Below, one piece after another: positions 32,614-39,311 of a stretch of DNA of 48,170 nt. The notes under the pieces were generated by a model. That model was given only the letters and a program-made list of their open reading frames with translations, ran no database searches and was not told the DNA's origin. This stretch comes from Methanosphaera stadtmanae (GTDB lineage Archaea; Methanobacteriota; Methanobacteria; Methanobacteriales; Methanobacteriaceae): assembly GCA_015062805.1 (NCBI GenBank), contig SUTQ01000013.1:1-48170 (forward strand). The letters run 5' to 3'. Within the stretch, counting starts at the first letter, position 1. Every line of letters begins with the position of its first letter. A program made the position numbers and the translations under genes.

Positions 32614-32739
32614 TTGTAAGAATATTTATTACAAATACAAAATAATACAAAATATTCTATAAAAATGTTTATCTTTGTATTACTCTAACAATACTTTAAA
32701 TCGTTAAAGTATATCCTGAACTTTTAGGTATGTTTTTTT
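32614..32739 (+). ncRNA. Possible small structured RNA upstream of mrt
   Basis: Four stems follow each other: TTGTAA/TTACAA (32614-32634), AATACAAA/TTTGTATT (644-651 with 674-681), ATACTTTAA-ATCG-TTAAAGTAT (32691-32712, perfect nine) and ATATCCT/AGGTAT (32711-32731). Seven T come next. A TATA-like TTTATATG lies about 30 bases before the first stem. Whether it is transcribed cannot be seen. Confidence 0.3.
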
Positions 32740-32856
32740 GTATAAATATTTGAACACAATTATGGAAATGTATTTTAGAAAGTTGGAGGAGTATATTTTT
32801 TCTTATTTAAGTATTTTACTGAATTTTTTTTCACTTTAGCAATTATAAAAACACGT

Positions 32857-32925
32857 ATTACTATTTAATGATTCCTCAATGTTTTTACCAACTAAATAAT
32901 TGATGAATATAACATAAATAGTAAT
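32857..32925. promoter_or_regulatory. Separated inverted repeat upstream of mrtB
   Basis: ATTACTATTTA at 32857-32867 is perfectly inverted as TAAATAGTAAT at 32915-32925. A CAC/GTG extension on both sides is interrupted by two bases. TCAAT/ATTGA pairs inside. It can be a leader hairpin or paired operator half-sites. Confidence 0.4.
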
Positions 32926-33017
32926 GTGGAAATCAAGAATAAGGAATTTATAACCCGGAATGAATATGATAATTTCATTTCTTAATGAATATACTATTTT
33001 AAGAGGTGTACATATAA

Positions 33018-34346
33018 ATGCCAACATATGAAGACAAAATAGATTTATATGGGGTAGATGGAAAACTTTTAGAAGAACAAGTACCTCTAGAAGCAATTAG
33101 TCCAGTAGTAAACCCTACAATTAAAAATATTATACAAGAAATTAAGCGTTCTGTTGCTGTAAACCTTGCAGGAATAGAAAAATCTTTAGCAAGCGGAGCA
33201 TACGGTGGAAAAGCTAACTTTATTCCAGGTAGAGAATTAGAATTAGCTATTGTAGACAACGCTGACGCTATAGCTGACAAAATGACTAAAATGTTAAGAG
33301 TAAACTGTGATGATGATTTCAACTTAGAATTATTAAACGGTGGAAAACAAATTTTAGTTCAATTACCTTCAGAAAGATTAAGTGTTGCTGGAGACTACTC
33401 TGTTGCACCATTAGCAACTGGATCAGCTTTAATCCAAGCTATTATCGACACATTCGATATTAACAAATACCAAGCATCAGAAATTAAAACTGCTGCTATG
33501 GGTGGATACCCACACAACGTACAATTAGGTGGAGCATTAACTACTTTATTAGGTCAAACAACTCACCTTGAAGGTTTAGGTTACAGTTTAAGAAACATTG
33601 GAGCAAACCACGTAGTTGCAATTACTAAGAAAAACACTCTTAACGCAGTAGCTTTATCTTCTATCTTAGAACAAACAGCTACCTTTGAAATGGGTGACGC
33701 AATAGGTGCATTCGAAAGAAGCCACTTATTAGGTTTAGCATTCCAAGGATTAAACGCAAACAACTTAGTTTACGATTTAGTAAAAGAAAACGGTAAAGGT
33801 ACTCTCGGAGATGTTGTTGTAGCATTATTATCAAGAGCATTAGACGATGGAGTAATCAAAGTAAAAGAAACATTACCTTCCGGATACAAATTATACGAAC
33901 CAGTTGACTGGGCATTATGGAACGCATATGCAGCAGCAGGTCTCGTAGCATCTGTAATTGTAAACGTAGGTGCAGCAAGAGCAGCACAAGGTATCGCATC
34001 TTCTATTCTTTACTTCAACGATATTTTAGAATATGAAGCAGGTTTACCTGGTGTAGACTTTGGTAGAGTAATGGGTACTGGTGTAGGTATGAGTTTCTTC
34101 TCACACGGTATTTACGGTGGAGGAGGACCTGGTGTTTTCAACGGTAACCACGTAGTAACCAGACACAGTAAAGGATACGCAATTCCATGTAACACAGCAG
34201 CTATGTCATTAGATGCAGGTACTCAGATGTTCTCTGTAGAAGCTACATCAGCATTAGTTGGAGAAGTATATGGTAACGTAGACAATTTAAGAGAACCAGT
34301 TAAATATGTAGCTGAAGGAGCTTGTCAAGTAAAAGATTCACTCTAA
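33018..34346 (+). CDS. mrtB: Methyl-coenzyme M reductase II beta subunit
   Basis: This is the beta subunit of the nickel enzyme that reduces methyl-coenzyme M with coenzyme B to methane. The 442-residue protein starts [15 protein letters not shown] and has the late [21 protein letters not shown] block near the active site. Codon use is narrow, as in mvh. The operon reads B-D-G-A with no C gene between D and G, the arrangement known for isoenzyme II (mrt), so I prefer mrtB over mcrB. The ribosome site aagaggtgtac lies before the ATG. Confidence 0.93.
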
Positions 34347-34363
34347 TTATAGGATGTTAAATT

Positions 34364-34876
34364 ATGTCAACAGAAGTAGAAGAACAAAAGCAAAATATAA
34401 TAAAAGCAACCGATGTAAAAATTTTCCCACATAGAATTTTAAAACCTACAACCACCGAAACAATTTTGAATCAGGTTTTGGTATTGGATGGTGTTTTAAG
34501 AGTTTTAATTAATGGTGAATCATTACCGACAGTAGTTAACTTTGGCCCTGCAAAAGGATTGCCTGTTAACCACACGGATCGTAAAACTATAAATATTAAG
34601 GGAAATGATGTTCCACTACGTGTATCTGTTGGAGAAATTATTTTAACAGTCCAATTAGACAATCTCGAAGATTTTGTAGAACAAGTTGATCAAATTTTGA
34701 ATGATACATTAAGCTTTGGTTACGATATTAAAGTAGGTGTATTCACTAAAAATCAAACTTCAGTTTCAGATTATATGAAATATGGGGATGGATTTGAAGA
34801 AAAAATTGATTCAAGACTTATTGGATTAGTTGATCCAAATGCAAAATCATCAGAAACTGTAAGATATATCAGGTGA
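34364..34876 (+). CDS. mrtD: Methyl-coenzyme M reductase operon protein D
   Basis: McrD/MrtD is a 170-residue accessory protein that is not part of the purified enzyme. It binds Mcr and is thought to help assembly or F430 insertion. The block DVKIFPHRILKPTTTE at the start, with GPAKGLPVNHTDRK later, is characteristic. Codon use is visibly less strict than in B, G and A (more AAT, GGT, CGT), which fits a lower need for the protein. The start follows aggatgttaaatt. mrtG begins six bases after its stop. Confidence 0.92.
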   Translation: MSTEVEEQKQNIIKATDVKIFPHRILKPTTTETILNQVLVLDGVLRVLINGESLPTVVNFGPAKGLPVNHTDRKTINIKGNDVPLRVSVGEIILTVQLDNLEDFVEQVDQILNDTLSFGYDIKVGVFTKNQTSVSDYMKYGDGFEEKIDSRLIGLVDPNAKSSETVRYIR

Positions 34877-34882
34877 TTGTAA

Positions 34883-35679
34883 ATGGCATATGACGTACAA
34901 TTTTATCCTGGGGAAAGTAAAATTGCGGAAAACCGTAGAAAACACTCAAACCCAGATTATGAACTCGAAATACTAAGAAGTATTGCAGATGACGATATAG
35001 TAAAACTTTTAAGTCACAGAAATCCAGGGGAAGGTTACAAAACAGTACACCCACCTCTCGACGAAATGGACTTTGAAGCAGATGACATGAAAGACTTCGT
35101 AGAACCTATCGACGGAGCTAAAAAAGGAATTCGTATTAGATACGTACAATTCGCAGATTCCATGTATAACGCACCAGCTCAACCTTACGACAGAGCTAGA
35201 TCATACATGAGAAGATTTAGAGGAGTAGATACAGGTACACTTTCAGGAAGACAAGTAGTTGAAATGAGAGAATCTGACTTAGAAGAAACTTCCAAATTAT
35301 TAATTGAATCCGAATTCTTCGACCCTGCTAAAACAGGATTAAGAGGGGCAACCGTACACGGTCACTCATTAAGACTCGATGAAAATGGTTTAATGTTCGA
35401 CGCATTACAAAGATACGTATTTGATGAAGAAGAAGGAGTAGTAAAATACGTAAAAGACCAAGTAGGTGTAGAACTTGACGAACCTATTTCAGTAGGAGAA
35501 CCATTACCAGAAGATAAACTTAAAGAAATCACTACAATTTACAGATATGACAATGTAAGTTTAAGAGATGACCCTGAAGTAATCAAAGTAGTAGAAGAAG
35601 TACACTTCGCAAGAACTGCTGGTGGATATGGTTTAGAAGTATTCAACGACGATTTACAAAGTAAATTAGGTGGTAACTA

Positions 35680-35680
<1 letters not shown>
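34883..35680 (+). CDS. mrtG: Methyl-coenzyme M reductase II gamma subunit
   Basis: This is the gamma subunit, 265 residues, of the (alpha-beta-gamma)2 reductase. It starts [19 protein letters not shown] and includes [20 protein letters not shown] and [20 protein letters not shown], the family blocks that help shape the F430 pocket. Its stop overlaps the ATG of mrtA by one base, so the two are translated in tandem. Highly biased codons match mrtB and mrtA. Confidence 0.94.
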
Positions 35681-37338
<1,658 letters not shown>

Positions 37339-37350
37339 ATGGGTTAAATT

Positions 37351-37621
37351 ATAAGGAAAATAAGAGTACATTTATATATAACAAGGAATATATATAGTAT
37401 TGGAGTTTTCCAAGTAAACTTTAAGTATTGAAATATATTCAATAATAGTTAATAGGTGGAATAGCAAGGTACGGCCCATATTACAATCGTAGATGAGGTA
37501 CGACCTGCATACTTCCCGTTATTCAAACTATTATTATACTTTTACTGGAAATAGTTAAGGAATTTTGTACTTACTTGAAAACGACTACTCTTAAGCTATT
37601 TTCCTTATTAAAAACTTTTTT
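37351..37621 (+). ncRNA. Large structured RNA or 3' UTR downstream of mrtA
   Basis: A perfect 12-bp stem (ATAAGGAAAATA 37351-37362 with TATTTTCCTTAT 37597-37608) continues with AGAGTA/TACTCT (37363-37368 with 37586-37591) across a small bulge and so closes 258 bases. Inside are GTAAA/TTTAC with CC/GG (37410-37418 with 37541-37548), a perfect 10-bp helix 37441-37450 with 37526-37535, GAATAGC/GTTATTC (37459-37465 with 37518-37524), and a tip hairpin TCGTA/TACGA at 37487-37503. The core 37455-37520 is much richer in G and C than its surroundings. A T7 run follows at 37615-37621. It could be the mrt 3' UTR or a separate RNA. I do not recognise it as RNase P, SRP or a known riboswitch. Confidence 0.5.
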
Positions 37622-37896
37622 TATACAATTTAATTAATTTCATTTTAAAACAAGCTTATTTTAGGTATGTTAAATTTATGTACGGCATCTCTTTAAAATT
37701 AATTTTTCATGATTAATGGATATTGTTATAATAAGGACTATTTTTCTATTTTACTGTTAAAAAAAGTATTTAATCATAACAAGTTAAAATTAAGTTTAAG
37801 TTAAAATTCTAAAAAACGCTAATCTATGACCGCATTCATAATTCAAAATTTTTCTAGTTTATTTGCAGGATGAGTTGTGTCAAATATTTTTTTATT

Positions 37897-37916: not shown

Positions 37917-39206
37917 TTAGTAAACGTATTTACCTTCATTTTTACATACTTCATTTTCTTCAGAGACAATATTTCCTCTGTTAATAGTCATTACATTACA
38001 ACCCAGGTATTCTCTGTTTTCAAAAGGAGTGTATTTTGCTTGAGTAAACCACTCATCTACATTAATTTTGCCTTCTTTTTTCATATCCAATACTGTAATG
38101 TCTGCATCATATCCTTTTTCAATAAGTCCTTTATTTGGAATTTTAAATATTTTTGAAGGATTGTGACTGGTTAATCTAACTACTTCATCCAGTGTGATAT
38201 TATTTTTATTCACTTCTGTTAATAACAGGGGCAATGTAACTTCCAAACCCGGAATTCCAGCAGCACTTGTCCAAGTGTTTTTCTGTTTTTCTTCCAAAGT
38301 ATGTGGTGCATGATCTGTTCCTATTGAATCAAATTCATTTAGGTAATCTAATGTAATGTTGTAGTTTTTATCACGGAGTGGTGGGTTGGTTTTGGCCTTT
38401 ATTCCATATGTGTTATAAGTGGAGTTGTCCAGGAACAAATGGTGTGGTGTTGCTTCTATAGTAATGTTTGTACTTGTTCTTGCTTCATGAATTAACTCCA
38501 ATGTTTGTCTGGTACTGATGTGACATAGATGTATCTGTAAATCTAATTTTTTTGAATATTCTATTGCCCTATTAACAGCTATTAGTTCTGCCAATGCACT
38601 TCTTGCATAACTATAAGTGGTTGTTTTTGAATCATTTTCTGGATTGCTGCTTAGTGTTTTAATGTTGTAATCCACCAGGTTTTTATCTTCGCAGTGTAGA
38701 CATAATGGTTTGTTTGTTTTGGAAACATATTCAAACATTTGATATAGTTCCTCGTTTTCATGTAAATCCATAAATATTTTGTATGCAGCAGGCTTTTCTT
38801 TTAATATTTTATCAACGTCTTCTTTAGTTTTTACGCCTGCATGTAATGCAAAATCAACACATGATTTTTTGCTTGCTATTTCTTTTTTCTCTTTAAATGC
38901 TTTGACAGTATCTGTTTGTGGAATTGTGTTTGGCATGTCAATTATTGTTGTGTAACCACCATGTGCTGCTGCTTTACTACCACTTTCCCAATCTTCCTTA
39001 TGGGTTAATCCTGGATCTCTAAGGTGTACATGGGGATCTATTAATCCGGGAATTATAATTTTCTCTTTGAGGTCTACAATTTTATCAGTAGTTTTATCGG
39101 AAGGCAGTATTTCTTTTTTTATGTCTTCAATTATTCCATCCTTTATAATGATGTTCACAATTTTGTTTTCAATTGTTTTACAATTTTTTAATATTAAATC
39201 TCCCAT
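37917..39206 (-). CDS. pyrC: Dihydroorotase
   Basis: Dihydroorotase closes carbamoyl-aspartate to dihydroorotate in pyrimidine synthesis. Metal ligands are visible in DPHVHLRDPG near residue 53 and SIGTDHAPHTLEEK in the C-terminal third. The carboxylated lysine is expected in AAYKIFMDL. The frame opens at 39221, but GGTGA sits five bases before the ATG at 39206, so I begin there with MGDLILKN (429 residues). It is a stand-alone class I enzyme with no other pyr gene nearby. Confidence 0.92.
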   Translation of the reverse strand: MGDLILKNCKTIENKIVNIIIKDGIIEDIKKEILPSDKTTDKIVDLKEKIIIPGLIDPHVHLRDPGLTHKEDWESGSKAAAHGGYTTIIDMPNTIPQTDTVKAFKEKKEIASKKSCVDFALHAGVKTKEDVDKILKEKPAAYKIFMDLHENEELYQMFEYVSKTNKPLCLHCEDKNLVDYNIKTLSSNPENDSKTTTYSYARSALAELIAVNRAIEYSKKLDLQIHLCHISTRQTLELIHEARTSTNITIEATPHHLFLDNSTYNTYGIKAKTNPPLRDKNYNITLDYLNEFDSIGTDHAPHTLEEKQKNTWTSAAGIPGLEVTLPLLLTEVNKNNITLDEVVRLTSHNPSKIFKIPNKGLIEKGYDADITVLDMKKEGKINVDEWFTQAKYTPFENREYLGCNVMTINRGNIVSEENEVCKNEGKYVY

Positions 39207-39311
39207 TATTTTCACCTTCATCTTATAAATTGGTTGTAAAAATCTTTACTTATTAATAATATATGTAACAAATTTTTATATATCTTTTAAAAATTTTTAA
39301 GTTGGTTTTTT

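Follow-up and report, generated by a model that had tools for sequence, protein, structure and literature searches.

Background

Methyl-coenzyme M reductase (MCR) is the enzyme of the methane-forming step, and to our knowledge no RNA element has been described for any MCR operon. Some methanogen mRNAs carry a structured element, the archaeal SECIS, in their 3' UTR. Papers related to it are PMC9622424 and PMC11881835. According to PMC8716108, termination in archaea depends mainly on a U-tract and on aCPSF1. In haloarchaea, 5' and 3' UTRs have been reported to interact functionally (PMC2636863). Work on orphan structured RNA families has yielded a 3'-UTR motif in bacteria (PMC2864571) and, in a set from the human microbiome, five archaeal structures in all; the main text of the latter paper names no methanogen (PMC8040213).

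Here we describe a large folded element directly behind the mrt operon of Methanosphaera. The window, that is the whole stretch of DNA analysed, is 48,170 nt long, and the work follows up an earlier note that had pointed to the element from the letters of the window.

Results and discussion

The mrt locus

The source genome (G000) is archaeal, belongs to the genus Methanosphaera and measures 2.1 Mb. Its mrtBDGA operon (33018-37338, + strand; NCBIfam equivalogs TIGR03257, TIGR03260, TIGR03259 and TIGR03256) comprises mrtB (33018-34346), mrtD (34364-34876), mrtG (34883-35680) and, as the last gene, the MCR alpha gene mrtA (35680-37338), all on the + strand. This is the only MCR operon found in the genome, which has a single MCR alpha gene, and the Methanosphaera genomes examined have one MCR operon each, of the Mrt type. 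The mrtA gene is a single open frame of 552 amino acids with no internal stop. The element occupies the 3' side of mrtA, directly behind the operon; downstream of it lies a dihydroorotase gene of the pyrC neighbourhood (37917-39221), convergent to the mrt operon.

At the other end of the operon, the 5' leader of mrtB (32640-33017) is conserved in 17 of the 20 genomes of the genus, G011 and G016 included. Among its near-invariant blocks are ATAAATATTTGARCAC, AGTTGGAG, for which a distant CCAACT is the complement, and ACCCGGAATGAAT, which stands ahead of the ribosome site. The z score of its single-sequence fold is only -1.84. The leader is thus only a candidate for another RNA element in the mrt operon.

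Anatomy and strength of the fold

The conserved fold was defined from comparative data and consists of a closing stem (P1), a hairpin (P2), a long rod, a 3' hairpin and two alternative helices that close the rod. The minimum free energy structure of the single sequence deviates from it in some details. All of the features given below are on the + strand. The 5' strand of P1, called a (37351-37368), starts 12 nt past the mrtA stop codon, and its partner is strand a* (37586-37608). Twelve perfect pairs join ATAAGGAAAATA (37351-37362) to TATTTTCCTTAT (37597-37608) over a span of 258 nt, and six more (37363-37368 with 37586-37591) follow beyond a 5-nt bulge. Both sets of pairs had been described in the earlier note, and every other part that it named was likewise found in place. 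P2 (37371-37398) has TTTATATA as its 5' strand.

The rod domain (37402-37554), a long imperfect hairpin made up of P3, P4, P5 and the tip, is matched by our covariance model R1 with 148.8 bits. Near its base lies strand b (GUUUUCCAAGUAA, 37405-37417), for which the pairing fractions give two alternative partners, b1 (UUUUACUGGAAA, 37540-37551) and b2 (UUACUUGAAAAC, 37571-37582). The inner rod (37441-37535) is closed by a perfect and covarying helix of 10 bp (37441-37450 with 37526-37535), again as first read. Inside it the alignment and pair table place a dyad-symmetric inner helix with its tip loop (37464-37510), in which single A residues are bulged. A near-repeat had been remarked upon in the core, GGTACGGCC (37468-37476) and GGTACGACC (37497-37505). 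It is explained by the inner helix, which is formed by two nearly invariant RCAAGGUACGAYCUGYA quasi-repeats paired with each other; these two are the only matches to the pattern in the genome. Strand a' (GGAAAUAGUUAAGGAAU, 37547-37563) is a near-duplicate of a and an alternative partner of a*. The T-run of the earlier description corresponds to a U-run at 37616-37622, the presumed 3' end of the transcript. Since P1 ends at 37608, a predicted stem is followed by a U-run, as would be expected of an intrinsic terminator, and a U-rich stretch is found 3' of P1 in the aligned copies as well.

The segment 37351-37621 has a predicted folding energy of -61.7 kcal/mol, compared with -44.0 +/- 4.2 kcal/mol for 200 dinucleotide shuffles (z = -4.23). 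The shuffled sequences fold much worse and none of the 200 does as well, in agreement with the earlier opinion that nested pairing of this kind is unlikely to arise by chance. The opposite strand of the element also gives a strong fold (z = -3.2). The claim that the core is richer in G and C than any other spacer of the window holds as far as the flanking spacer, the only one compared: the core has 32-38% GC and this spacer about 20%.

Covariation and the functional strand

Among 16 distinct copies of the rod, 96.3% of the cells are paired, compared with 29-48% in slid controls. Changes on both sides are seen in 27 of 48 pairs, where 8.5 would be expected from shuffles. Since the rod was aligned with the structure as a guide, these figures are biased in favour of the structure, yet the margin over the slid controls and the shuffles is wide. 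P1 was assessed independently of any alignment by a swap test, in which a copy's own arms pair at -17.5 kcal/mol and arms taken from different species at -12.0 kcal/mol; the difference was reached in none of 20000 permutations, shared ancestry being retained in this count. In a hand alignment, the ten core pairs of P1 exhibit 13 compensatory double changes on the rod-based tree, and 125 of 140 core cells are paired in 14 copies. The swap test for P2 gave 5 in 20000 permutations, likewise with shared ancestry retained. As a negative control, the same permutation test was applied to the element and the 5' leader of the mrt operon, and no coevolution was detected (p 0.28-0.74).

Compensatory changes in both the rod and P1 thus go beyond the shuffled and slid controls, as is expected of a new RNA family, and conservation and covariation in relatives, on which the earlier note had staked its proposal, are both strong. 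At the level of sequence comparison the base pairing of the element is established, that of P1 included. G-U pairs outnumber A-C combinations by 54 to 9, and the functional RNA is therefore the mrt-sense (+) strand. Since P1 covaries and begins so close to the mrtA stop codon, the functional transcript must include the 3' UTR of the mrt mRNA, and a role in cis is consequently favoured.

Two alternative folds

Two sets of strands compete within the element, a feature that goes beyond the earlier description: b can pair with b1 or b2, and a* with a or a', the two partners being nearly identical to each other in either case. In the computed full-length form the mean pairing fraction of b:b2 is 0.60 and a* pairs with a over 15 bp; two of the 15 copies (L037 and L039) have no preference for b:b2 in this form. 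Computed without the 5' arm, the element tends to a rod closed by b:b1 plus a 3' hairpin ahead of the U-run. The mean for b:b1 is then 0.40, with a range of 0.08 to 0.76, and a* pairs with a' over 10 bp. The b:b2 helix scored 33 in 20000 in the swap test, and UUUU in b accompanies AAAA in b2 (7 of 8 copies versus 0 of 7; Fisher p = 0.0014, phylogeny not corrected). The result for a':a* was weak (408 in 20000), and b:b1 varies too little among the copies for covariation to appear. The two-state model is therefore inferred from the computed folds and from covariation that bears on part of it.

Distribution

A DNA search of 41 genomes located the element in 16 genomes of the genus, the source genome among them, always directly 3' of mrtA. 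R1, which was built on the 151-nt rod, adds a diverged copy in G011, so that the element stands directly behind mrtA in 17 of the 20 Methanosphaera-genus genomes; at the level of sequence, its conservation and location are thereby established. There is one confident copy per genome, and the lone marginal second match (E = 0.4) is in G010. A search of the class with R1 (152 genomes) gave no confident match in the 132 other Methanobacteria genomes, with filters strict enough that weak matches may be lost. Among relatives, the true mrtA genes of Methanobrevibacter have nothing similar downstream, and neither do those mcrA genes of other Methanobacteriaceae that were inspected; most of the latter are followed by a short hairpin, for example GGTGTTTTAACACC, and a U-run.

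The MCR alpha gene (PF02249) was not detected in G002 and G019, two genomes of the genus that lack the element. These genomes are 97% and 91% complete, respectively, and the absence of MCR alpha would be startling for a methanogen unless there is a gap in assembly or binning; the missing genes are possibly assembly gaps. G016 does have mrtA, and the DNA behind it has no sequence match to the element. A spacer of about 280 nt, unrelated in sequence (L042), occupies this place; its predicted fold is a single rod of great length (z = -5.8), with a U-run at the end. The RNA of this rod is either an extremely diverged version of the element or a replacement of it. A folded RNA at the same site is as expected if selection acts on a folded 3' UTR.

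Function and rival explanations

We judge it slightly better than an even chance that the element is a genus-specific structured 3' UTR of about 260 nt, carried by the mrtBDGA mRNA, ending in the U-run and acting in cis. It probably controls or protects the mrt message, which ranks among the most important mRNAs of the cell. P1 and the U-run would form a defined, protected 3' end of this message, one that could resist 3'-5' decay and so stabilise the mrt mRNA, and the rod may offer a conserved recognition surface to a protein or ligand. The strong sequence conservation within the rod, as read from the alignments, suggests more than a passive cap. A less certain part of the mechanism is bistability: in the full transcript P1 would form and b would pair with b2, and if the 5' arm were missing or engaged elsewhere, b would tend to b1 and the 3' strand would fold onto a'. 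Such a bistable element could tune the stability or processing of the mrt mRNA 3' end.

The earlier note had offered three roles, namely stabilisation of the mrt mRNA, termination and an independent RNA. The covariation of P1 favours a cis 3'-UTR role, and a plain terminator leaves a conserved interior of 150 nt unexplained. A gene for an independent non-coding RNA has an appreciable minority chance. Here TTTATATA (37371-37378) would be a TATA box, and an RNA of about 220 nt, made from near 37402 to the U-run, would act in trans. The 5' strand of P2 is indeed TATA-box-like, nearly invariant and far better conserved than its pairing partner; TTATATA is found within the P2 region in 15 of 15 copies, at a fixed 30-31 nt ahead of the rod, and the sequence between TTTATATA and the conserved G(A/G)AG start is otherwise variable. 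A comparable TATA box with a dyad spacer is seen at some tRNA promoters of this genome, and the short form folds as the rod plus a 3' hairpin ahead of the U-run. However, the promoter profile learned from the tRNA and gene upstreams of the source genome requires an A-rich BRE (AAAAAgTATATATA), which is absent at TTTATATA, and most copies of the site receive weak scores. The supposed promoter would lie downstream of P1, a stem that covaries strongly, and a copy is never found apart from mrtA, although the mrt-pyrC neighbourhood is itself conserved. On account of the P1 covariation and the weak, BRE-less promoter site, the 3'-UTR model is ranked first and the independent RNA second. At several tRNA genes of G000 (e.g. 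L084, L088, L089 and L098), a near-perfect dyad stands between the TATA box and the start region, as in CTTTATAT..ATATAAAG; it could be a promoter feature of the genus.

That the element might be a new archaeal RNA family that works as a bistable and probably ligand- or protein-responsive 3'-UTR switch and sets the fate of the MCR mRNA across Methanosphaera, we regard as unlikely. Taken as a rival in its own right, a riboswitch-like or protein-responsive switch with the b:b1-closed rod as putative sensor and the exchange to b:b2 and P1 as putative output appears fairly improbable. Both sets of competing strands are conserved, and so is the symmetric inner helix with its bulged A residues, nearly without change; but the 3' strand would be paired just ahead of the U-run in both states, and the weak swap result for a':a* also counts against an exchange. 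It is doubtful, too, that cleavage of the mrt mRNA, at P1 or close to it, releases a stable small RNA (220-260 nt) that has its own function. The long closing stem, the conserved rod interior and the tie of each copy to mrtA would all fit such a product, but no target was found for it, and the core motif is absent elsewhere in the genome. A plain transcription terminator, or a chance fold in AT-rich sequence, is very improbable. The U-run after a stem is what a terminator would have, yet the shuffles, the covariation and some 150 nt of conserved interior speak against both, relatives manage with a short hairpin, and covariation rules them out as a complete explanation. Hardly any probability attaches to a mobile, MITE-like element with terminal inverted repeats. 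The element does form a 258-bp unit between inverted arms, but these arms coevolve across species, and a transposable element is rejected because each genome has a single confident copy, which stands behind mrtA in every case.

If the favoured reading is true, a structured and covarying 3' UTR on the MCR message of a human and rumen commensal would make post-transcriptional control of methanogenesis directly testable. The element would also extend the few large, lineage-specific RNA families known from archaea.

Comparison with known systems

The covariance models of Rfam 15 gave no match at the gathering threshold in the window or in 8 homologous loci, in keeping with the earlier opinion that the element belongs to no recognised class; at a relaxed E-value only chance-like, sub-threshold matches appeared. 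It is not described in the open-licence papers searched, supplements being outside that scope. The most fitting description is that of a new family of structured RNA, specific to this lineage and belonging to a known broad kind, 'structured 3'-UTR or orphan RNA'.

Like the archaeal SECIS, it is a structured 3'-UTR element in a methanogen mRNA. The lack of an in-frame UGA in mrtA excludes a SECIS, and Rfam gave no match. With the orphan structured RNA families (PMC2864571 and the human microbiome set of PMC8040213) it shares covariation and conservation in an RNA whose function is not known. With archaeal terminators of the U-tract/aCPSF1 type it shares the U-run at the 3' end, but these (PMC8716108, PMC7515710) do not need a large fold, unlike the element of Methanosphaera. 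Given that archaeal termination works mainly in this way, the large fold should be more than a terminator. The short hairpin behind mcrA in other Methanobacteriaceae is similar in position and outline, since it too stands directly behind the stop codon of the MCR alpha gene, with a stem and then a U-run. However, the mcrA hairpin measures about 20 nt and has a simple loop, whereas in Methanosphaera the loop is a covarying multi-helix domain of 220 nt.
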